Origin: Ignavibacteriota bacterium
GTDB taxonomy: Bacteria > Bacteroidota > Ignavibacteria > UBA10030
NCBI GenBank assembly: GCA_003170475.1
Contig: PMZI01000014.1
Location: forward strand, 1 to 62,995
DNA: 62,995 nt
Direction of reading: 5' to 3'
Below are positions 13,120 to 23,654 of this stretch, in pieces. The notes under the pieces were generated by a model, which was given only the letters and a program-made list of their open reading frames with translations, had not been told where the DNA came from and did not search any database. Each line of letters starts with the position of its first letter. Positions within the stretch are counted from its first letter, which is position 1. A program made the position numbers and the translations under genes.

Positions 13120-13230
13120 AGTTGGTAAAAACTTCTGGCATGCTCAGTGTCCCACCGGTCGCTGAACTCATCTGCAAAACCGGCTGAAAGCGAGTGTTTG
13201 CGAATGGGCCCTCGTTGCTTACAATTCTCC

Positions 13231-13261
13231 TTGCCCTTGAATCCAAAGGTTCTTACTTTTG
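13231..13261 (+). promoter_or_regulatory. Predicted promoter of the acyl-CoA/ACP synthetase gene
   Basis: TTG (13231-13233), 20 nt, TACTTTTG (13254-13261), a perfect TAnnTTTG. It overlaps the in-frame ATG at 13259 and so supports the later start at 13310. Confidence 0.55.
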
Positions 13262-13309
13262 CAGGCCTTCAAACGCCGTATCCGGCATCAATACCAATGG
13301 GAAAACACT

Positions 13310-14830
13310 ATGCTTCTGCATCACCAATTTGTGCGGACGGCAAAGACGTACGAGTCCAAGATTGCCGTCATTGACCGGACTCTGAACCGGCGGCTGACAT
13401 ACAAGAAAGCTTTGATAGGTTCCCTGATGCTCATGAAGAAATTCGAGAGCTACAGTCCGGGATTCCTGGGTATCATGCTGCCAAACTCTGCCGGCTCCGT
13501 GTTGGCAATTCTGGCCACTCTGATGAGTGGTCGTGTCCCTGTCATGATCAACTACTCCACCGGAGCAGCTGCAAATTGTGATTTTGCGCAGAAGAAATGT
13601 GCCTTCAAGACAATCATAACCTCCAGAACTTTGTGTGAAAAGATTAATTGCCGCAAAGTCGACGGGATGGTCTTTCTTGAAGACATTATGAAATCAGTGG
13701 GCTTCCTTGACAAGATCAAGGCTGCCTTCAAGGCTGGGCTCCCTGTCGAGCGCATTCTCAAGAGCATCCACCAAGGGGACGAAGATGACACCCTGCTCAT
13801 ATTGTTCACGAGCGGCAGCGAGAAGGAGCCAAAGGGTGTTCAGCTTACTCACAGAAATATTTCTTCAAACTACGTTGCCCTGAAAAAGGCCATTATTTTC
13901 TCGGCTGAAGATACTTTCCTCGCAAATCTCCCTTACTTTCACGTCTTCGGGCAAACCGCAAATCTCTGGGTTCCTCTTGCGGAAGGAATGACGATTGTAA
14001 CCTATGCCAATCCTCTCGACTTCAAAACGATTTGCGATATTGTTCGGGAAGAGAAAGTGACATTGATGGCAGGAACTCCGACGTTCTTCTGGGGGTATCT
14101 GAGAAATTCGAAGCCGGGAGACTTCTCCACGGCCCGGATCCTTCTCTCGGGCGCAGACAAGTGCCCCGATGCGCTCCGCAAAGGAATGATGGAGAAACAT
14201 GGAAAGGTTTTACTCGAGGCATATGGAACAACAGAGACCAGTCCTGCTATTACCGTAAACACCCTTGAGAACAATCGGCCAGGTAGCGTTGGGCGACCGA
14301 TCGAAGGTGTCCAGGTAAGGGTCGAGAACTACGAATCAGGCGAACCATGTGCTGTGGGAACTATCGGGAAGATCCTCGTGAAGGGAGACAACGTTATGAA
14401 AGGATACTTTGACGACTTCGAGCAAACGTCTCTGAGTATCCGACATGGATGGTACGACACGGGAGACATGGGCTACCTCGATGCAGATGGTTACTTATGG
14501 CACGTGGGTAGACTGAAGCGCTTCCTGAAAGTCGGCGGCGAGATGGTATCACTGATCAGAGTCGAGGACGTCCTGGAGAAACTTCTCCCTCCGGATGTCG
14601 AATGCTGTGTCGTCGAGGTGCCGGACCCAATTCGAGGATCCAGGATCATTGCCACCGTTACGCGTCCAATAGATGAAAAAGGGACGCTGAAAAAAATGGC
14701 AGAACAGCTCCCAAGCATTGCGATGCCAAGCAGATTCGTCGTCATGCCGGAGATGCCAAAGACGGGGAGCGGGAAGATAGATTTCAGAACGATTACGGAG
14801 AAGGTTCGGGATATCATCCAGTCTCAATGA
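13310..14830 (+). CDS. AMP-binding acyl-CoA / acyl-[ACP] synthetase (Aas-like)
   Basis: A 506-residue adenylate-forming enzyme that activates a carboxylic acid, probably a fatty acid, with ATP and transfers it to CoA or ACP. Motifs in order: P-loop 'LFTSGSEKEPKGVQLTHRN' (about 165-183), 'YGTTETSPAI', 'GWYDTGDMGYLDADGYLWHVGR', and catalytic-lysine region 'PKTGSGKIDFR' near the C-terminus. The 'KVGGEMVSL..VE' segment is characteristic of the Aas/acyl-ACP-synthetase branch; the acyltransferase half of Aas is absent. The start at 13310 (MLLHHQF) is preferred over 13259, which lies in the predicted promoter. It is monocistronic. Confidence 0.85.
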   Translation: MLLHHQFVRTAKTYESKIAVIDRTLNRRLTYKKALIGSLMLMKKFESYSPGFLGIMLPNSAGSVLAILATLMSGRVPVMINYSTGAAANCDFAQKKCAFKTIITSRTLCEKINCRKVDGMVFLEDIMKSVGFLDKIKAAFKAGLPVERILKSIHQGDEDDTLLILFTSGSEKEPKGVQLTHRNISSNYVALKKAIIFSAEDTFLANLPYFHVFGQTANLWVPLAEGMTIVTYANPLDFKTICDIVREEKVTLMAGTPTFFWGYLRNSKPGDFSTARILLSGADKCPDALRKGMMEKHGKVLLEAYGTTETSPAITVNTLENNRPGSVGRPIEGVQVRVENYESGEPCAVGTIGKILVKGDNVMKGYFDDFEQTSLSIRHGWYDTGDMGYLDADGYLWHVGRLKRFLKVGGEMVSLIRVEDVLEKLLPPDVECCVVEVPDPIRGSRIIATVTRPIDEKGTLKKMAEQLPSIAMPSRFVVMPEMPKTGSGKIDFRTITEKVRDIIQSQ

Positions 14831-14867
14831 GCTCTTCAGGAGACCGGCAGATTCAAAGTGAGTAGAG

Positions 14868-14891
14868 AGCCCCACGCGACGCGGGGCTTTT
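14868..14891 (+). terminator. Terminator after the acyl synthetase gene
   Basis: AGCCCC / GGGGCT stem with a nine-base partly self-pairing loop, followed by four T. Confidence 0.7.
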
Positions 14892-15005
14892 GCTTGCAGT
14901 GGATTGCGACGGCTCGCAATTCGATTGCAGACATCCTCACGTATCGCACAGGGATCCTTCCCGCACCCCTCTTCGGCTGAAGAGGATGTCATTGACTTCG
15001 TCCGG

Positions 15006-15040
15006 AAAAAGAAAGAGCCCCGATTTCGGGGCTCTCTTTT
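15006..15040 (-). terminator. Bidirectional terminator serving the OmpA-like gene
   Basis: A ten-base stem AGAGCCCCGA / TCGGGGCTCT with A-rich and T-rich flanks on both sides. It lies 46 nt past the stop of the leftward OmpA-like gene and also backs up the rightward acyl synthetase terminator. Confidence 0.85.
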
Positions 15041-15085
15041 CCAAAACTTGTTTCTCCGAATCGTCTGACCCGGATATCCACTGAC

Positions 15086-15934
15086 TTACTTCTTCACTAA
15101 TTCGACGCGACGATTCTTTGCCCGTCCTTCTTCGCTTCGGTTATCGGCAACCGGTCGATCTTGCCCAAATCCTGCTGAGCTGAGCCGTGACGTCTGTATG
15201 CCTGCCTTTACCAGCGCAGCGACGACTGATTTGGCTCTTTCTTCCGACAGCTTCAAATTACTTTTGGCGTCGCCAACATTGTCCGTGTGTCCCTCTACGC
15301 TGAGTTTCAAGTCGGCGTTGGTCTTGAGCAGCTGCACGATTTGTTCGACGATGGACTCAGATTCGGGTTTGATCATGGATTTTCCCGTATCAAAGTGAAT
15401 GTCAAGAGCAATGAACCCGTTCTTATTGATTGCATCAAGCATGTCGGAGGCGGCAATATCCTGACGCATGAGTTGCTTCTCCAACACTGTCACAGTATAG
15501 TCATCGCCCATGCTCCAAATATCGGTCCATATTTCTACATTCTCTCGAGTGATGCATGCCGTGAGGACCTCGCGATTGTATCGGTTGTCTTCGTAGGACT
15601 CCGATCTTCCCTCAAAGAGTATCTTTCCGCCGATTTTCTTTATTGCATTGGAGTAGTTGCGCCGGATCTGCAGCTCGCTGGGCACCGGCTTAAGCGACTC
15701 CTTTGGTCGATAGGTTACCGTGGTCACTTTCCCTTCCAATGTCACCAACGCTTTCCCATTGAAGAATTTAAACGCATCGAATTCCTTTGTATCAACGTTT
15801 GTGATATAGTAACCGGTCATACGGTTGAATAGAGCAGGATCTTTCGTCCCTGGCTCGTCCTCCTGGGCGAATCCCTTGGAAACAAGGAGAACTAGCGCAG
15901 CGAACAATAAGGCGGTTGAACGCAGACGAAACAT
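15086..15934 (-). CDS. OmpA-like peptidoglycan-binding outer-membrane protein
   Basis: A 282-residue protein. The start at 15934 has AAAGGA upstream and opens a signal peptide ending 'SKGFAQ'; an in-frame start at 16021 lacks both. The central 130 residues are a unique domain ('PALFNRMTGYYITNVDTKEFDAFKF' region) without a motif I know. The C-terminal domain is OmpA/MotB-like: 'LDIHFDTGKSMIKPES', 'LSVEGHTDN', 'LSEERAKSVVAALV' and 'NRRVEL', including the Asp and Arg that bind diaminopimelate. It probably tethers the outer membrane to the wall. The gene is divergent from gatE and has its own promoter and terminator. Confidence 0.85.
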   Translation of the reverse strand: MFRLRSTALLFAALVLLVSKGFAQEDEPGTKDPALFNRMTGYYITNVDTKEFDAFKFFNGKALVTLEGKVTTVTYRPKESLKPVPSELQIRRNYSNAIKKIGGKILFEGRSESYEDNRYNREVLTACITRENVEIWTDIWSMGDDYTVTVLEKQLMRQDIAASDMLDAINKNGFIALDIHFDTGKSMIKPESESIVEQIVQLLKTNADLKLSVEGHTDNVGDAKSNLKLSEERAKSVVAALVKAGIQTSRLSSAGFGQDRPVADNRSEEGRAKNRRVELVKK

Positions 15935-16033
15935 AGGGTGGGTTCCTTTCATCATGAGCAGGCGACAGCGGTGCTGGATGGAATAGCGATGGTGCATGGG
16001 TGCGGACGATGCGTTCCGCAAAACAACCTGTTG

Positions 16034-16064: not shown

Positions 16065-16188
16065 GCATCTGCTGGTGAAAAGTTGGAACATTCATCACAA
16101 GCAACCACCTCATGCTTGCCTGGGATTGGAGCTCCTGCTTGTCGCCTCAAGGCGAAGAAGAGGGACGCCATCAGCAATTCCTCACTTG

Positions 16189-16218
16189 TTGATTTTGCAC
16201 ATTTGTTTCGTAAATTCA
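16189..16218 (+). promoter_or_regulatory. Candidate promoter of gatE-gatD
   Basis: TTG (16189-16191), 19 nt, TAAATTCA (16211-16218). The spacing is canonical and the -7 element imperfect. If used, gatDE has a native-type bacterial promoter. Confidence 0.35.
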
Positions 16219-16278
16219 ATCCGATCTGATGTCTGAGGACTTGCGAGCCTATGTTTTTCCGTCGGGAAGCGCGACACT

Positions 16279-18195
16279 ATGACGTTTAAACCTTTCAGCG
16301 AAATGACCGACAGCGACTATGCCGCTATCGGCTTCAAGTCTGGATTGGAAATTCATCAACAACTCTTGACGGAAAAGAAGCTCTTCTGCCGTTGCCCTGC
16401 CGGCCTCTACAGCGACTCCTTCAACGCGGAAATTCTTCGCCATATGCGGCCTACCCTCTCCGAACTCGGTGAGTACGATGGGACCGCCCTCATGGAGTTC
16501 AAAACAAAGAAGGAAATCATCTATCAGATCAACCACAGCACTGTCTGCACCTATGAGATGGACGATACACCTCCTTTTGAGTTGAATGATCAGGCCTTGG
16601 ACATCGCGCTGGAAATCGGACTGCTCTACGGCTGCAACATGGTCGACGAGATTCACATCGCCCGAAAACAATACCTTGACGGCAGCATTCCGACGGGGTT
16701 CCAGCGTACGACGATCGTCGGCGTACAGGGCAGTATCCCGTACAAAGACCGAAAAATCACGATCGTCCAGCTCGGACTGGAAGAAGACGCTTGTCGCGAG
16801 GTGAGCGATGTCGAGCACCGGCGGGTCTACCTCACAGATCGTCTCGGGATGCCACTCATCGAAACGGTGACAGCCCCCGACATGCGCACACCGCAAGAAG
16901 TTGCCGAAGTGGGAGACATCCTTCGCAAGCTCGTTCGGAGTACCGGAAAAGTTCGCACAGGACCGGGAGCTGCCCGGCAGGACGTCAATGTCAGCATCAC
17001 AGGCGGGACGCGTGTTGAAATCAAAGGCGTTCCAAGAATTCCAAACATTCCATTACTGACGTACAATGAAGCAATGCGTCAGTTCAATCTCCTACGCCTG
17101 CGCGATGAATTGCATCAGCGCGATATCACGATGGACACCTTTGAATCCCGAGCCGAAGAAGTGACAAAGCTTCTCCGAAAGACCCATTACATGCCGGTGA
17201 AAAATGCGATCGCAGAAGGAATGATGGCGCAGTGCGTTTTGTTGAAGGGCTTCAAAGGACTGCTTCGGTGGGAAACCCAAACAGATACCTATTTCTCGCG
17301 AGAAATCTCTGACCGCGTGAGAGTCATCGCCTGCCTGACGACGCTTCCAAACATCATTCATTCCGACAGCCCCAGCGAGACCCTCGCCTCCTCCGAATGG
17401 CGGGTTCTCAAGAAAGCCTTGAGCGCGACCGAAGATGACACGCTTGTTCTCGTTTGGGGCAATACGATCGACGCTACATCAGGGGCCTCGGAGATCGCGG
17501 TCAGGGCGAAGGAAGCTACCCTCGGAGTCCCGTCTGAAACCCGGCAGGCGCTCCGCGACGGGACAAACGGATTTGAACGAATTCTTCCCGGCCCCGATCG
17601 GATGTATCCCGACACGGACCTTCCACCCCGACGTATCACGCGGGAACATCTGAAAGATATAAGCGCCAAAGTCCCACGCCCGTTCTACGAAAACATTCGT
17701 TGGTACAACGAGCTCGGCATTCCCAATGATGTCAAAGATCCCCTGAGCATTTCGCCGTACTCGGCCCTCTTCGAGTCTGCTGTGAAACGCTGGAATGTTC
17801 AGCCGACACTTGCGTCAGTCGCATTGATTCAATTTCCAAAGCGCATTGCCCGCGCACTCGGACGTTGCGTGACATTCCCTGCACATTCCATGAAAGAACT
17901 CCTCCTTGCGCTGAAGGATCATACTCTGACGCGAGAAGGCATCCTTCCCGCATTACGGGAGATTGCATCAGGCCGGGAGTTCACGCGCGATTCTCTCCCT
18001 CCTCTTTGCTCCGAAGAAGAATTCGTCGAGGCGCTCAATAAATCACTCTCGGTGATCTCCAGAACAAAGATCCGGCGCCCCGAAAAGAAATCGGAAGTGT
18101 TGATGGGACTTATCATGAATGATCTCCGTGGCCGTATCGAAGGTCACGTCGTTGCAACCAGGATTGCCAGCATATCTGCGGAGGTTCGGCCATGA
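16279..18195 (+). CDS. gatE: Glu-tRNA(Gln) amidotransferase subunit E (archaeal type)
   Basis: A 638-residue tRNA-binding/kinase subunit of the two-subunit GatDE amidotransferase, which makes Gln-tRNA(Gln) from Glu-tRNA(Gln). The cradle domain has 'GFKSGLEIHQQLLTEKKLFC' (about 18-37) and 'YEMDDTPPFELN'. What separates it from bacterial GatB is the AspRS-like insertion (about 345-430, 'ACLTTLPNIIHSDSPS' onward), the GatE hallmark 'ILPGPDRMYPDTDLPP' (about 434-449), the length (GatB is near 480) and the adjacent gatD. The C-terminal YqeY-like tail 'RRPEKKSEVLMGLIMNDLRGRI' binds the tRNA elbow. Its stop overlaps the gatD start by ATGA. Base composition resembles its neighbours, so any transfer is old. 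Confidence 0.93.
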   Translation: MTFKPFSEMTDSDYAAIGFKSGLEIHQQLLTEKKLFCRCPAGLYSDSFNAEILRHMRPTLSELGEYDGTALMEFKTKKEIIYQINHSTVCTYEMDDTPPFELNDQALDIALEIGLLYGCNMVDEIHIARKQYLDGSIPTGFQRTTIVGVQGSIPYKDRKITIVQLGLEEDACREVSDVEHRRVYLTDRLGMPLIETVTAPDMRTPQEVAEVGDILRKLVRSTGKVRTGPGAARQDVNVSITGGTRVEIKGVPRIPNIPLLTYNEAMRQFNLLRLRDELHQRDITMDTFESRAEEVTKLLRKTHYMPVKNAIAEGMMAQCVLLKGFKGLLRWETQTDTYFSREISDRVRVIACLTTLPNIIHSDSPSETLASSEWRVLKKALSATEDDTLVLVWGNTIDATSGASEIAVRAKEATLGVPSETRQALRDGTNGFERILPGPDRMYPDTDLPPRRITREHLKDISAKVPRPFYENIRWYNELGIPNDVKDPLSISPYSALFESAVKRWNVQPTLASVALIQFPKRIARALGRCVTFPAHSMKELLLALKDHTLTREGILPALREIASGREFTRDSLPPLCSEEEFVEALNKSLSVISRTKIRRPEKKSEVLMGLIMNDLRGRIEGHVVATRIASISAEVRP

Positions 18196-19580
18196 CCGTT
18201 CCAGACAGCTACAGAGGCTATCGCGGCAAAGCGCTGGAGACTCTGAAATCGTTCGATGCGATGGTTTGGAGCGATGTCGAGATCACGACCGACGCAGGCT
18301 CCTTCACGGGCATCGTTCTACCTCGTTCGGAAACAGCCGATCCTCTGCATATCGTCTTGAAGCTTCGAAGCGGCTACAACATCGGCGTGGCGGCGGAGAG
18401 TGTACGCGCGATCGCGGTGAACGGACGGAAAGAGGCCCATTACAAAATCCCCGAGAAGGCATTCCCTTTCGACCCTGCCAAGCCACGGGTAAAGCTTCTC
18501 GGCACTGGCGGGACTATTGCCAGCAGGCTCGACTACAGGACTGGTGCAGTCATCCCTGCGTTTTCTCCCGGTGAACTCTACGGCTCGGTCCCGGAGTTGG
18601 CGGATATCTGCAATCTTGAGACTGAAAAACTGTACGGCGTCTTTAGCGAGAACATGGGGCCGGAACAGTGGATCGGCACAGCACAAGCCATAGGCCGCGA
18701 GATCGCGAAAGGCGTGCAGGGAATTGTGATTGGCCACGGTACTGATACCATGCACCATACGGCTGCCATTCTTTCGTTCATGGTGCAGAATTCTCCGGTG
18801 CCGATCGTCATGGTCGGTTCGCAACGATCGAGCGATCGTCCCTCCTCCGATGCCGCACTCAACCTCATGCATAGCGTCAAGACCGCAGCCGAAAGCGACA
18901 TTGCTGAAGTCATGGTTTGCATGTTTGGTCCGACTTCCGATCAGTACGGACTGCTCCATCGAGGCACGCGGGTCCGAAAGATGCACTCCAGCTACCGCTC
19001 GACCTTTCGAACGATTGGGGATATTCCGATTGCGATGGTCAGTCGAGAGAAGATCACTCCCCTGCGGCAGGACTACAAACGGCGTCGCAAGGACCAGGAC
19101 GTCGTCATCAATACGGCGTTCGAAGAAAAGGTCAGCATTGTCTACTACTATCCGAACATGAAACCGGACATCATCGACTCCCTCATCGACAACAATTACC
19201 GGGGAATCATCATCGCCGGGACCGGTCTTGGGCATGTCAACAAACCTCTCTACCCCGCCCTCAAGCGAGCGCATGAGAAGAACATTGCCGTCTACATGAC
19301 CGTCCAGACCCTGTGGGGATATGTTCAGATGTACGTCTATGACACTGGAAGAGACATGATGGAACTCGGTGTGGTGCCGTCGGCAAATATGCTGCCCGAA
19401 GTCGCCTACATGAAGCTTGGCTGGGCATTGGGCCAAACGGATGATCTGGTGAAAGTGCGCCAAATCATGATGACGCCCGTCGCCGGCGAAATCACAGAGC
19501 GTGAGCCAAGCAATGGCTATCTCGTTTTTCAGGGAGGCATCCCGGAAGTCGAGGAATTCATCTCCCGATATCGTCGATAA
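18192..19580 (+). CDS. gatD: Glu-tRNA(Gln) amidotransferase subunit D (archaeal type, asparaginase-like)
   Basis: A 462-residue glutaminase subunit of GatDE that frees ammonia for transamidation. Residues 1-95 are the GatD N-terminal beta-barrel domain ('YRGKALETLKSFD', 'VLKLRSGYNIG'), absent from plain asparaginases. The asparaginase-type catalytic residues are all present: Thr108 in 'LGTGGTIAS', Thr184-Asp185 in 'GHGTDTMHHTA' and Lys263 in 'RVRKMHSSYRSTF'. The C-terminal region ('GTGLGHVNKPLYPALKRA', 'PEVAYMKLGWALGQTDD') matches archaeal GatD closely. It starts on the ATGA overlap with gatE. A free cytoplasmic asparaginase is unlikely given the N-terminal domain and the gatE partner. Confidence 0.93.
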   Translation: MTVPDSYRGYRGKALETLKSFDAMVWSDVEITTDAGSFTGIVLPRSETADPLHIVLKLRSGYNIGVAAESVRAIAVNGRKEAHYKIPEKAFPFDPAKPRVKLLGTGGTIASRLDYRTGAVIPAFSPGELYGSVPELADICNLETEKLYGVFSENMGPEQWIGTAQAIGREIAKGVQGIVIGHGTDTMHHTAAILSFMVQNSPVPIVMVGSQRSSDRPSSDAALNLMHSVKTAAESDIAEVMVCMFGPTSDQYGLLHRGTRVRKMHSSYRSTFRTIGDIPIAMVSREKITPLRQDYKRRRKDQDVVINTAFEEKVSIVYYYPNMKPDIIDSLIDNNYRGIIIAGTGLGHVNKPLYPALKRAHEKNIAVYMTVQTLWGYVQMYVYDTGRDMMELGVVPSANMLPEVAYMKLGWALGQTDDLVKVRQIMMTPVAGEITEREPSNGYLVFQGGIPEVEEFISRYRR

Positions 19581-19640
19581 CTGCACGATCGTTTCCGATC
19601 CATCCAACTGATTGCGGTCGGCATCCATCAATTCTCATTT

Positions 19641-19670
19641 TTGATTTTCCCTAACTTCTTCGTATATTTA
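19641..19670 (+). promoter_or_regulatory. Predicted promoter of the pdhABC operon
   Basis: TTTTTG ending at 19643, 19 nt, TATATTTA (19663-19670): seven of eight matches to TAnnTTTG. The leader is about 45-50 nt. Confidence 0.5.
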
Positions 19671-19723
19671 CGGTTGCTGCAAAGGGAATCCGGCACCGTC
19701 AAACTGAAGTGAATAAAGGTAGA

Positions 19724-20758
19724 ATGAACAGTACTGCTCCTGTAGCTCCTCCGAAGCAAAGCAACTCCCGACTTTTGGGACTTCCCCGCGAGACTCTCCT
19801 CATTTGGTATGAAGACATGCTCCTCGTCCGGAGATTCGAGGAGAAATGCGCTCAGCTGTATGGGATGGGCATGATCATGGGCTTCTGCCATCTCTACAAC
19901 GGCCAGGAAGCTGTCTCCACCGGAGCCATCAGGGGGGCAATCAATCCGGACGACTACGTCATCACGGCATACCGAGACCACGGCCAGGCGATTTCCAAGG
20001 GAGTTGATCCGAAAGCTATCCTCGCAGAACTGCTCGGCAAATATACCGGCACAACAAAAGGAAAAGGCGGATCGATGCACATCTTCGATCGCGCCAAAAA
20101 TTTTCTTGGCGGCCATGCGATCGTTGGCGGTCACATCCCCATCGCCGCGGGAGTAGCATTCGCGATCAAGTACCGAGGAGAAAAGAAAGTGTGCCTCTGC
20201 TTCATGGGTGATGGAGCAACAAACATCGGAGCATTTCACGAAGGCCTTAATCTTGCCGGACTGTGGAAACTCCCTGTCATTTATATCATCGAGAACAACA
20301 AGTACGGCATGGGAACGTCCGTGGAACGCGCCTCTGCTGTCGAAGATTTGTACAAGAAAGCCTACGCCTATAATATCCGCAGCGAAGTCGTCGATGGCAT
20401 GGATGTTCTCGACGTCTACCAGAAAGTGAAAGCGGCGGCCGACCGCGCGCGCGAAATCTATGAACCCACGCTCCTCGAGATTGAGACATACCGATTCCGA
20501 GGCCATTCGATGTCTGATCCCGTGAGCGGCCATTACCGATCGAAAGAAGAAGTCGAACGACTCAAGAAATCCGATCCGATCATCCATCTTGCTGAAACCC
20601 TTAAGGAAGAGGGGATGATAACGGATCAGTACCTCGACGAAGCTGAAGAACGGGTCAAGAAAATCGTACAGGAGTGTGTTGAGTTCGCGGAAAATAGTCC
20701 TGAACCCCCAATCGATGAACTTTGGAAAGATGTCACCATCGAAAGGAGCGGAGAATAG
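19724..20758 (+). CDS. pdhA: Pyruvate dehydrogenase E1 component, alpha subunit
   Basis: The thiamine-diphosphate half of the E1 heterotetramer, decarboxylating pyruvate and acetylating the E2 lipoyl group. Seen: 'YEDMLLVRRFEEKCAQLYGMGMI', 'AYRDHGQAI', the ThDP/Mg motif 'GDGATNIGAFHEGLNLA...ENN' (about 168-198) and the phosphorylation-loop-like 'YRFRGHSMSDP'. Length (344) is normal. The ATG at 19724 with AAAGG just upstream is chosen; a GTG at 19709 in the same frame is the alternative. It is the first of three genes; only 2 nt separate it from pdhB. Other 2-oxo acid E1 enzymes are possible, but 'HIPIAAGVAFA' and the motif set favour pyruvate. Confidence 0.9.
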   Translation: MNSTAPVAPPKQSNSRLLGLPRETLLIWYEDMLLVRRFEEKCAQLYGMGMIMGFCHLYNGQEAVSTGAIRGAINPDDYVITAYRDHGQAISKGVDPKAILAELLGKYTGTTKGKGGSMHIFDRAKNFLGGHAIVGGHIPIAAGVAFAIKYRGEKKVCLCFMGDGATNIGAFHEGLNLAGLWKLPVIYIIENNKYGMGTSVERASAVEDLYKKAYAYNIRSEVVDGMDVLDVYQKVKAAADRAREIYEPTLLEIETYRFRGHSMSDPVSGHYRSKEEVERLKKSDPIIHLAETLKEEGMITDQYLDEAEERVKKIVQECVEFAENSPEPPIDELWKDVTIERSGE

Positions 20759-20760
20759 CG

Positions 20761-21747
20761 ATGGCGATCGTCAGTTTGCGTGAGGCGCTCAATCAGGCTA
20801 TTGATGAAGAAATGACCCGCGACGAGCGTGTGTATATGATGGGCGAAGAAGTCGCGAATTATCAAGGCGCATACAAAGTCAGTCAGGGATTGCTCCAGAA
20901 GTGGGGTCCGAAGCGAATACTCGATACACCCATCGCAGAAGCCGGATTCGCCGGCCTTGGGATAGGATCGGCGATGCTTGGGCTTCGTCCCATCGTCGAA
21001 TTCATGACCTGGAATTTTTCTCTGGTGGCATACGATCAGATTGTCAATAACGCCGCAAAAATGCTCTCCATGTCCGGTGGCAATTTCAGCGTTCCGATTG
21101 TCTTCCGGGGTCCGGGCGGGGCTGCCCATGGACTCGGGGCCACCCACTCGCAAGCATTGGAATCTATCTACAGTCATTTTCCGGGGTTGAAGGTCGTCAT
21201 GCCTTCAAACTGCAAGGATGCGAAGGGCCTTCTCAAGAGCGCAATCCGTGACGACAACCCGATCGTCTTCATCGAAAGCGAAGTAATGTATGGTGACAAA
21301 GGCGAAATTCCTGACGGCGAATACACCATCCCCATCGGCGTAGGGGAAGTGAAAAAAGAAGGGAAAGATGTCACCATCGTTTCTTGGTCAAAAGTGCTGG
21401 CGCATGTTGTTTTGAGCGCTGTCGACGTTCTCCAGGAAGAATTGAACATCAGCATCGAAGTGATCGACCCCCGAACCATTCGACCCATGGACTACGACCT
21501 CATCGTGTCGTCTGTCAAGAAGACGAACCGTCTGGTAATAGTTGAGGAAGGCTGGCCATTTGCGGGAGTTGGCGCCCAGATCTCTCATGAAGTTGCTGCA
21601 AGAGCATTTGATCATCTGGATGCGCCTGTGGAAAGAGTCACACAGGAAGACGTGCCGCTTCCTTACGCTCACGCCCTTGAGGCGCGCTCCCTGCCAAACC
21701 TTGACAAGATCCGGTCAGCGGTGAAAAAAGTCCTCTATCTCGACTGA
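20761..21747 (+). CDS. pdhB: Pyruvate dehydrogenase E1 component, beta subunit
   Basis: A 328-residue partner of PdhA. Typical segments: 'SLREALNQAIDEEMTRDERVYMMGEEV', 'GPKRILDTPIAEAGFAGLGIGSAMLGLRP', 'MSGGNFSVPIVFRGPGG' and 'EVIDPRTIRPMD'. The start at 20761 follows GGAG about 7 nt upstream, itself inside the end of pdhA, so translation is coupled. An upstream in-frame ATG at 20722 would add 13 basic residues and is not used by the family. It supplies the pyrimidine-binding half of the ThDP site. Confidence 0.93.
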   Translation: MAIVSLREALNQAIDEEMTRDERVYMMGEEVANYQGAYKVSQGLLQKWGPKRILDTPIAEAGFAGLGIGSAMLGLRPIVEFMTWNFSLVAYDQIVNNAAKMLSMSGGNFSVPIVFRGPGGAAHGLGATHSQALESIYSHFPGLKVVMPSNCKDAKGLLKSAIRDDNPIVFIESEVMYGDKGEIPDGEYTIPIGVGEVKKEGKDVTIVSWSKVLAHVVLSAVDVLQEELNISIEVIDPRTIRPMDYDLIVSSVKKTNRLVIVEEGWPFAGVGAQISHEVAARAFDHLDAPVERVTQEDVPLPYAHALEARSLPNLDKIRSAVKKVLYLD

Positions 21748-21764
21748 ATGAAAAAGGCAACTCC

Positions 21765-22976
21765 ATGGCGACATTGATCAAAATGCCGAAGCTGAGTGAC
21801 ACGATGGAAGAGGGTGTCATTCTCAAGTGGCTTCGCAAAGAAGGCGAAAAGATCAAGCAAGGGGATATCCTTGTAGAGATTCAGTCTGACAAGGCGGACA
21901 TGGAGCTCGAAGCCTATGATTCCGGTGTTGTCCGCAAGATCTTCGTCCCTGAAGGTGGAAAAGCTCCGATCGGAGGATTGATCGCGATTATCGGTGCGCC
22001 TGAGGAAGACATTTCCGCTGTCCTCTCGGGCTCTCCCACCGTGTCAGCGTCAAAAGCGGGAGCACAAGCCAATCCAACGCTCTCTCCCACGTCCCAGGCA
22101 TCTACAACGGCTGAGCTACTCGACAGCAAGGGAAAGGCCTCTCCCCTGGCCCGCAGACTGGCTAGAGAAAACAGGATAGACCTAACAGCCGTCTCAGGCA
22201 CCGGTCCTCAGGGAAGAGTGATCAAGAGAGACCTCGAAGGCATGATCTCCGGTAAACCCGCCGGCGCTACGCCGGTTTCTCGACCGATCATTCCTGGAAC
22301 AGCAGAGGATGTTGAACTCTCTCCTATCCGGAAAACAATTGCAAAACGTATGACAGAGAGCAAAACGACAGCGCCGCATTTCTATGTTACTGTTGAAGTT
22401 GATATGGATCCGGCGATGACCTTCCGGGATCAGATCAACGCCGTCAAGGAAATCAAGCTCTCGTTCACAGACATTATCATCAAGGCCACCTCGGAAGCTC
22501 TGATGAAACATCCTCAGGTCAATGCCACTTATCTTGGCGACAAGATGCGGCAGTATCACTATACACACATTGGCGTTGCCGTGGCCTTGGAAGAGGGATT
22601 GGTGACACCGATCGTACGCAACTGCGAGCAGAAGCGTCTCGATCAGATTAATGCCGAGCTCCGCGACCTCGTGGAACGGGCACGCACCAGGAAACTCAAG
22701 CCGGACGAGTATCTTGGAGCCACGTTCACTATAAGCAATCTCGGAATGTTTGGCGTTGAGGAATTCGCAGCCATCGTAAATCCCCCCGAGGGAGCGATTC
22801 TCGCCGTGGGAGGGATTATTGAGAAACCAGTTGTCAGAAATGGAGAAATCGTCATCGGCCACACCATGAAAGTGACGCTTTCCTCCGATCACCGTATTAT
22901 TGATGGCGTGGTCGCCGCTCGATTCATGCAGGATTTCAAAAAGATTCTCGAAAATCCGGCATCACTCGTTCTCTAG
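21765..22976 (+). CDS. pdhC: Pyruvate dehydrogenase E2, dihydrolipoamide acetyltransferase
   Basis: A 403-residue E2 with one lipoyl domain (about 1-78; lipoylated Lys in 'EIQSDKADMEL', residue 44), a Ser/Ala/Pro-rich linker, a peripheral subunit-binding domain ('SPLARRLARENRIDLTAVSGTGPQGRVIKRDL', broken here for display; about 126-157) and the acetyltransferase core from about 185. The catalytic 'DHRIIDG' sits near the C-terminus. It follows pdhB by 17 nt and is closed by the terminator at 23009-23037. The E3 gene (lpd) is not in the operon or the window, so E3 must be encoded elsewhere. Confidence 0.92.
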   Translation: MATLIKMPKLSDTMEEGVILKWLRKEGEKIKQGDILVEIQSDKADMELEAYDSGVVRKIFVPEGGKAPIGGLIAIIGAPEEDISAVLSGSPTVSASKAGAQANPTLSPTSQASTTAELLDSKGKASPLARRLARENRIDLTAVSGTGPQGRVIKRDLEGMISGKPAGATPVSRPIIPGTAEDVELSPIRKTIAKRMTESKTTAPHFYVTVEVDMDPAMTFRDQINAVKEIKLSFTDIIIKATSEALMKHPQVNATYLGDKMRQYHYTHIGVAVALEEGLVTPIVRNCEQKRLDQINAELRDLVERARTRKLKPDEYLGATFTISNLGMFGVEEFAAIVNPPEGAILAVGGIIEKPVVRNGEIVIGHTMKVTLSSDHRIIDGVVAARFMQDFKKILENPASLVL

Positions 22977-23008
22977 GGAACTCGTTCGAGCAAGAATGTT
23001 TACCGAAA

Positions 23009-23037
23009 GAGCCCGGCTTCGTGTCGGGTTCTTTTTT
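23009..23037 (+). terminator. Terminator of the pdhABC operon
   Basis: A stem GAGCCCG / CGGGTTC (one G-T pair) followed by six T, 32 nt after the pdhC stop. Confidence 0.85.
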
Positions 23038-23054
23038 CGATGTGAGACGATACT

Positions 23055-23654
23055 ATGCCGAAGTCGATTCGCCAGAGAATTGCAGAAGAAATGACAGGAG
23101 CGGCGCTTCCGTTTCTCGCATTTTGTATTGCGCTGAACCTCACCGCCGGACAGATCACCGCGGCTTTGAAAATTCCTCTCTATCTTGATTCCATTGGCAC
23201 CATTCTCGTGGCAGTCCTCGTTGGCCCATGGTCAGCGGTCATCTGTGGAAGCACGGCAAATTTGCTCGCAGCGGCATTTGGCAACCCAACGATGATTTTC
23301 TTTATCCCCGTAGTTGTCGTCATTGGTGCGTTTTCAGGGTTCCTGGCCAAGAAGGGTTGGTTCCGAAAATGGTACCTGGTTGTCATTGGGGGGATCTTGC
23401 AGGGCGTGCTGGCAGCGTGCATTTCAGCTCCGATCTCAGCATATGTTTTCGGCGGAGTCATGATGGCCGGAACGGACTTCCTTGTGCTCTATTTTCGATC
23501 CGTCGGCAATACGTTGCTTAACAGTGTCTTCTATCAAGGACTCGCCTCGGACCCGGCAGACAAGCTCGTCAGTTTTCTCATTGTCTTCTTTCTCACAAAG
23601 AATCTCCCCCAACGTCTCCTCAGTCGGCTGCGTGGAGCTGCAAACGTAGGATAA
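23055..23654 (+). CDS. ECF transporter substrate-binding (S) component
   Basis: A 199-residue integral membrane protein with about five or six hydrophobic segments and the S-component signature near the N-terminus ('ALKIPLYLDSIGTILVAVLVGPW', shown in part: residues about 36-58). It binds a vitamin or cofactor precursor and docks on EcfT. The next three genes are EcfT, EcfA and EcfA', so this is a dedicated group I-type ECF transporter in the inner membrane. The substrate cannot be told from sequence by eye, and no riboswitch was recognised upstream. It begins 17 nt after the pdh terminator and has only a weak ribosome-binding site. Confidence 0.8.
   Translation: MPKSIRQRIAEEMTGAALPFLAFCIALNLTAGQITAALKIPLYLDSIGTILVAVLVGPWSAVICGSTANLLAAAFGNPTMIFFIPVVVVIGAFSGFLAKKGWFRKWYLVVIGGILQGVLAACISAPISAYVFGGVMMAGTDFLVLYFRSVGNTLLNSVFYQGLASDPADKLVSFLIVFFLTKNLPQRLLSRLRGAANVG

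Follow-up and report, generated by a model that had tools for sequence, protein, structure and literature searches.

A GatDE-type amidotransferase kept beside GlnRS in Ignavibacteria and other bacterial groups

We analyzed a 62,995-nucleotide stretch of DNA (the window), contig PMZI01000014.1 of assembly GCA_003170475.1 from an Ignavibacteriota bacterium of the class Ignavibacteria; in the genome, which comprises 4.08 Mb in 85 contigs and is rated 96% complete, it is contig C76. It contains two genes, gatE and gatD, and comparison with protein families and structures makes it near certain that they code for GatDE, a Glu-tRNA(Gln) amidotransferase described as now found only in archaea in the accessible part of a review (PMC9499178). 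We found that the same genome codes for glutaminyl-tRNA synthetase (GlnRS) and for GatA and GatB of the bacterial amidotransferase GatCAB, and that GatE and GlnRS tend to occur together in the class. For this genome and the carriers tested, an auxiliary role of GatDE is well supported over replacement. As to mechanism, our best guess is repair of Glu-tRNA(Gln), and a change of substrate follows closely as the next candidate.

As described in the initial annotation of this DNA, the genes form an overlapping pair, a two-gene unit on the + strand with 4 shared bases. The product of gatE (16279..18195, + strand, 638 residues; subunit E) scored 526 bits against NF003107 (cut-off 456) and 450 bits against TIGR00134 (cut-off 320), and that of gatD (18192..19580, + strand, 462 residues; glutaminase subunit) scored 514 bits against NF003217 (cut-off 310) and 509.5 bits against TIGR02153 (cut-off 324). 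GatE consists of a GatB-like catalytic core, an AspRS-like insert at about residues 290–405, and helical and tail domains (borders placed by eye), and the GPDRMYPDTD motif named in the annotation was found in it. The barrel and asparaginase-type residues claimed for GatD were also recovered: Pfam identified GatD_N and both asparaginase domains, the N-terminal barrel being followed by an asparaginase-type domain with its motifs. In a sequence search of PDB, archaeal GatDE structures were the best relatives of both proteins, and an AlphaFold2 model of GatE (mean predicted local distance difference test score 83.5) matched 1zq1_C (E 4.3e-39) and 2d6f (E 5.5e-38) best. The pair resembles the P. 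abyssi (1ZQ1) and M. thermautotrophicus (2D6F) enzymes in its two subunits, domain order, shared motifs and passing of both equivalog cut-offs, with 33–37% identity of GatE in the fold-based alignment. Catalytic-type motifs that the pair shares with these two enzymes were invariant across the aligned bacterial and archaeal sequences, for example T105, T108, T184, D185 and K263 of GatD and E24, H26, E168, E169 and D170 of GatE.

Assignment of GatE to GatB was rejected: no GatB equivalog model gave more than 132 bits, and their cut-offs are 314.8 or higher. GatD passed the type I asparaginase model TIGR00519 as well (389 vs 260.5 bits); a plain type I or II asparaginase was rejected on the presence of GatD_N, the adjacent gatE partner and the higher scores of the GatD models. 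The core of GatE is homologous to GatB of GatCAB (GatB_N), whereas GatD is asparaginase-like and GatA is an amidase. The GatD of the MurT/GatD system of Gram-positive cell-wall amidation has the same name; the present GatD matches archaeal GatD and asparaginase families.

The genome is plainly bacterial, with a bacterial charging machinery. GlnRS on contig C13 scored 771 bits against TIGR00440 (cut-off 426) and is found beside a bacterial glutamyl-tRNA synthetase (GluRS; TIGR00464, 451 bits for the scored part). The genome also has an asparaginyl-tRNA synthetase (AsnRS, 491 bits). GatB, with a YqeY domain, scored 416 bits and GatA 612 bits (cut-off 481), GatCAB being judged from the GatA and GatB models. 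The genes gatA and gatB thus coexist with gatDE, and the genome is not the GlnRS-less setting of archaeal GatDE, a difference in setting and not in homology. For comparison, a 2014 survey (PMC4206432), in the part available, knew of no bacterium encoding both Gln-tRNA(Gln) routes. The discriminating character of GluRS was approached through the position of Arg358 of the T. thermophilus enzyme, which we take to separate discriminating from non-discriminating enzymes and which was placed by eye. It was dropped as a diagnostic: Arg is present in the GluRS of this genome and also in several GluRS of genomes without GlnRS.

GatE was found in all six examined genomes of the genus. In a phylum-wide sample it exceeded the cut-off in at least 30 of 395 genomes, all belonging to the window's own class; up to three candidates were scored per genome, which makes this number a lower bound. 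The occurrence "in a bacterium" noted in the annotation is correct for this genome and understates the range, since records from several bacterial phyla contain the pair. In a scan of named genomes, the best 80 of 559 confirmed relatives were all from bacterial records, labeled Ignavibacteria, Bacteroidetes, Chlorobiota, Kapabacteria, Aminicenantes, Acidobacteria, KSB1, Calditrichota or simply "bacterium". At 119 of 125 loci (some genomes counted twice) gatE and gatD lay on one strand, mostly adjacent. Of the six loci with GatE only, four (L052, L106, L142 and L144) stop no more than about 420 bases from gatE; the other two belong to G015, where one of them (L026) has no GatD match in more than 4 kb downstream. 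At L044, L055, L086, L107, L113 and L123 the best GatD match was about 1–3 kb away from GatE, and several of these matches were partial; split genes or frameshifts are possible explanations. Highly divergent GatED with very long branches (GatE about 42% and GatD 66–71% identical) were observed at L065 (G401) and L067 (G209).

Association of GatE with GlnRS was examined in a class sample of 149 genomes. GlnRS was present in 36 of 39 GatE-positive vs 43 of 110 GatE-negative genomes (Fisher p 2e-9) and, among the 133 genomes with a completeness of 90% or more, in 33/34 vs 39/99; the Fisher tests ignore kinship. When GatE was shuffled within the families that vary in it, the association persisted (p = 0.00035); in family f16, all four carriers and none of seven non-carriers had GlnRS. 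GatE presence in this sample was called from how many PF02934 matches a genome had and how strong they were, with E-values entered in rounded form and the second match not always seen singly. G101 and G105, whose extra matches were short fragments, were scored negative for GatE, and G445 and G451, with GlnRS fragments below the cut-off, were scored positive for GlnRS. Among 20 further GatE-positive relatives, 17 had GlnRS. In the named genomes, for which 50 of the 80 loci were used, GlnRS exceeded the cut-off in 41 of 50, with G554 showing two fragments below it; the named and class sets overlap (e.g., identical coordinates in G536 and G248). The association of GatDE with GlnRS in the class is the reverse of the situation in archaea, all known members of which lack GlnRS according to the same review (PMC9499178), which suggests, in the portion accessible, that coupling of GatDE to archaeal tRNA(Gln) may explain this lack.

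The initial annotation raised the possibility that GatDE had replaced GatCAB as the only route to Gln-tRNA, and looked to the absence of gatA, gatB and glnS as support; all three genes are present, which refutes replacement for this genome. Elsewhere, GatB matches were indeed missing in 12 of 39 class-sample carriers and in 25 of 47 named carriers (G531, G534 and G566 were outside the GatB search). GatA exceeded the cut-off in none of the 19 GatB-less carriers searched and in all 14 GatB-positive genomes (G340, G401 and G433 were searched with the GatA and GlnRS models, not with GatB). Such genomes without GatA and GatB are what replacement would call for, but they have GlnRS: 24 of the 25 GatB-less named carriers do, the exception being G520, which gave no GluRS match either, and in the class sample the only carrier lacking both GlnRS and GatB was G502, which is 74% complete. 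Thus, among carriers searched for both, only G502 and the poor bin G520 had neither, and GatDE as the sole route is highly improbable. All 12 GatB-less class carriers included in the AsnRS search (G012, G033, G047, G058, G170, G213, G248, G476, G480, G488, G508 and G516) had both AsnRS and GlnRS; direct charging of Asn and Gln is thus possible there, and GatDE has no obvious codon-supply role. As a separate observation, AsnRS fell into two score classes against TIGR00457, about 620 vs about 490 bits (G236, G417, G459 and G487 vs others), which suggests two AsnRS types in the class.

Two tRNA-Gln genes of clearly different build, UUG and CUG, were found in this genome on contigs C13 (L168) and C26 (L173). 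Both have U1-A72 and G73; the UUG species, which resembles a typical GlnRS-type tRNA, has G3-C70, and the CUG species, of another type, has C3-G70. In the part of PMC9976931 available, G3-C70 is counted among the bacterial Gln identity elements. This difference could fit a division of labor in which GlnRS charges tRNA-Gln(UUG), and GluRS with GatDE (or GatCAB) serves tRNA-Gln(CUG). However, tRNA-Gln of the CUG type is common across the class and occurs also in GatE-negative genomes that have GlnRS, and therefore does not track GatDE; such a division appears quite unlikely. A tRNA dedicated to GatDE was likewise rejected, as GatE-negative genomes have the same CUG tRNA-Gln. Of 67 CTG tRNA-Gln read (41 from GatE-positive and 26 from GatE-negative genomes, part of the places found), 66 had U1-A72, two of them after by-eye correction of a one-base slip, and the G439 copy was cut by the contig end. 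The discriminator base was mostly G73; A73 was seen in five GatE-positive and three GatE-negative genomes and, occurring in both alike, does not track GatDE. By comparison, PMC9499178 states that GatDE of archaea recognizes A1-U72 together with the D-loop, and that the tRNA(Gln) of archaea has A73.

The pair has been long kept, as the annotation proposed. Relative to the sister genome G003, the ratio of nonsynonymous to synonymous substitution rates (dN/dS) was 0.046 for GatE and 0.014 for GatD, values that are rough because synonymous sites are near saturation, and purifying selection on gatED was detected between this genome and four relatives. That GatDE is a redundant relic of an old acquisition, now being lost, could be argued from its patchy occurrence within families, the two very divergent copies in G401 and G209 and the lone GatE of G015. 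This selection, together with motifs invariant in the aligned copies, argues otherwise and makes a relic improbable.

Conservation is unevenly distributed over the two proteins. The mean identity of 41 bacterial GatE was 72% in the core and 24% in the tail, vs 58% and 37% between two archaeal GatE, and 79% and 61–65% among 21 GatB of the same order. Against G003, dN was 0.046 in the core of GatE and 0.21 in its tail. The ratio of tail to core corrected distance was about 5 in 11 order-level GatE (1.10/0.22), about 2 in the 21 GatB (0.43–0.49/0.24, from a different genome set) and about 1.8 between the two archaeal GatE (derived from identities). The asparaginase domain of GatD had a mean identity of 86% over 33 bacterial sequences, vs 61% between two archaea. 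The catalytic machinery of bacterial GatDE is tightly held and the GatE tail, which is the tRNA-gripping part in archaea, is not. It was also observed that GatD is about 77–97% identical to that of the window at most bacterial loci where GatE is 59–86% identical.

Our preferred explanation, tentative and held with slightly less than even confidence from sequence evidence, is that this bacterial branch of the GatDE family is catalytically intact and has been retained as an accessory to normal tRNA(Gln) charging by GlnRS, most likely for the repair of Glu-tRNA(Gln). GatD would hydrolyze glutamine (or asparagine) and hand ammonia to GatE, which would activate the gamma-carboxyl of the glutamyl ester and then amidate it. 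The most likely substrate would be Glu-tRNA(Gln) misformed by GluRS, GlnRS or AspRS, converted to Gln-tRNA(Gln), and the role would be repair of mischarged tRNA and not codon supply. One possible source of mischarged tRNA is AspRS, as glutamyl-tRNA synthetase activity is reported for a bacterial AspRS in the title of PMC6523644.

Several observations weigh against repair beside GlnRS. The within-family signal came mainly from family f16, and the permutation omitted G333 and G359, carriers of family f12 that lack GlnRS and fall outside the class sample; both are near-complete, and their GatB was confirmed on fetched stretches. In all, 14 carriers had no detectable GlnRS, and GlnRS is therefore not an absolute partner of GatDE. 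Nine of these have GatB (G005, G046, G333, G359, G495, G532, G533, G535 and G552), G502 lacks it, and the remaining four (named bins G520, G531, G534 and G566) likewise gave no GluRS match, and their incompleteness probably precludes a judgment; GatB and GatA are both present in all four named carriers that have GluRS and lack GlnRS. Besides, A1-U72, on which GatDE relies in archaea, is absent from the tRNA-Gln read, and a fast-evolving GatE tail is odd for an enzyme that needs to recognize a near-constant tRNA.

The last two points would fit a change of function, in which the chemistry was kept but GatDE no longer strictly recognizes the elbow of tRNA(Gln) and acts on another glutamyl or aspartyl substrate or as a regulated amidohydrolase. 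The tail/core ratio of GatE beside those of GatB and archaeal GatE, the far higher conservation of GatD than of GatE, and the direct charging by GatCAB-less carriers, which leaves no obvious need for GatDE, are in line with such a change. On the other hand, a C-terminal LMGxxMxxLRGR sequence and a tail whose fold is predicted with confidence remain, the core residues of GatE agree with the archaeal enzymes, and no neighbor gene among 80 gatED loci pointed to another pathway. We consider a changed function a serious alternative, albeit on balance unlikely.

With regard to origin, the annotation looked to nesting of bacterial GatE among archaeal sequences as support for replacement. In a tree with a GatB outgroup, the three euryarchaeal GatE that represented archaea grouped together (100/100), and the 26 bacterial GatE used formed a clade of their own (89/61), with a program warning of long branches; nesting among these three archaea was not observed. 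Aminicenantes GatE appeared in two places of the tree. The GatE of this genome was 63–66% identical to full-length Aminicenantes copies and 59–66% identical to most class members outside its order. Its GlnRS was 65–68% identical to GlnRS of six Aminicenantes/Acidobacteria carriers, whereas its GluRS was 34–37% identical to that of the same six and 55–68% identical to that of GlnRS-positive class members. High identity of GatE and GlnRS beside low identity of GluRS is consistent with gatED, as well as GlnRS, having been exchanged among bacterial phyla. As for mobile elements, none of 64 pattern matches in viral contigs coded for a relative, none of 14 matches in phage records covered 80% of GatE, and plasmids (41 records, 30 listed) yielded one archaeal GatE, from Natrinema. 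The other plasmid entries among the matches listed covered 32–41% of GatE at 24–29% identity, several being annotated as gatB. In Natrinema thermotolerans (CP031304.1, L258), the archaeal gatE was split over two frames and missing from the gene table.

A chimeric contig was ruled out by collinearity with sister genomes on both sides of gatED. A single blastn match to G003 (L034) runs unbroken over 16277–23198, and collinear matches to L034 at 13224–15991 and 16173–16228 lie upstream of the gatE start. The base composition, described as uniform, showed no sharp break, but gatED (GC content 0.535–0.551 in 2-kb windows) is at the top of the window range (0.470–0.551). A local promoter had also been proposed. 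A conserved 56-bp non-coding block (16173..16228, + strand), about 50 bp upstream of gatE and 91% identical in L034, where the flanking matches are 77% and 81% identical, is a candidate promoter region and suggests one, but promoter calling gave no consensus site ahead of gatE on the gene's own strand. Regarding a riboswitch or other RNA leader, Rfam thresholds gave only one tRNA in the window. Apart from gatE, gatD and overlapping frames, the top neighbor family was present at 14 of 80 gatED loci (PhoH/PIN by its representative), and an aldehyde dehydrogenase family (by representative) at seven.

The bacterial pair differs from archaeal GatDE in its coexistence with GlnRS, AsnRS and often GatB, in the tRNA-Gln read, which carry U1-A72 and mostly G73 instead of the A1-U72 and A73 described for archaea (PMC9499178), and in a much faster evolving GatE tail and a clade apart from the three archaea. 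No description of bacterial GatDE was found in the literature searched, which consisted of titles and beginnings of abstracts, with subscription papers mostly outside; database annotation may already name such proteins. From the gene content and sequences compared, we consider it an even prospect that bacteria of several phyla have a second, GlnRS-linked archaeal-type amidotransferase that has no part in Gln-tRNA supply and acts either as a dedicated repair enzyme (trans-editing by amidation) of mischarged Glu-tRNA(Gln) or on a changed substrate. If true, either would be a GatDE role new to the literature searched. The recurrence of GatDE in a bacterial class, mostly beside GlnRS and with a bacterial-type tRNA(Gln), challenges the rules that GatDE is restricted to archaea and that it excludes GlnRS, and the system allows a direct test of a role of tRNA amidotransferases outside codon supply, and of the first origin of GatDE.

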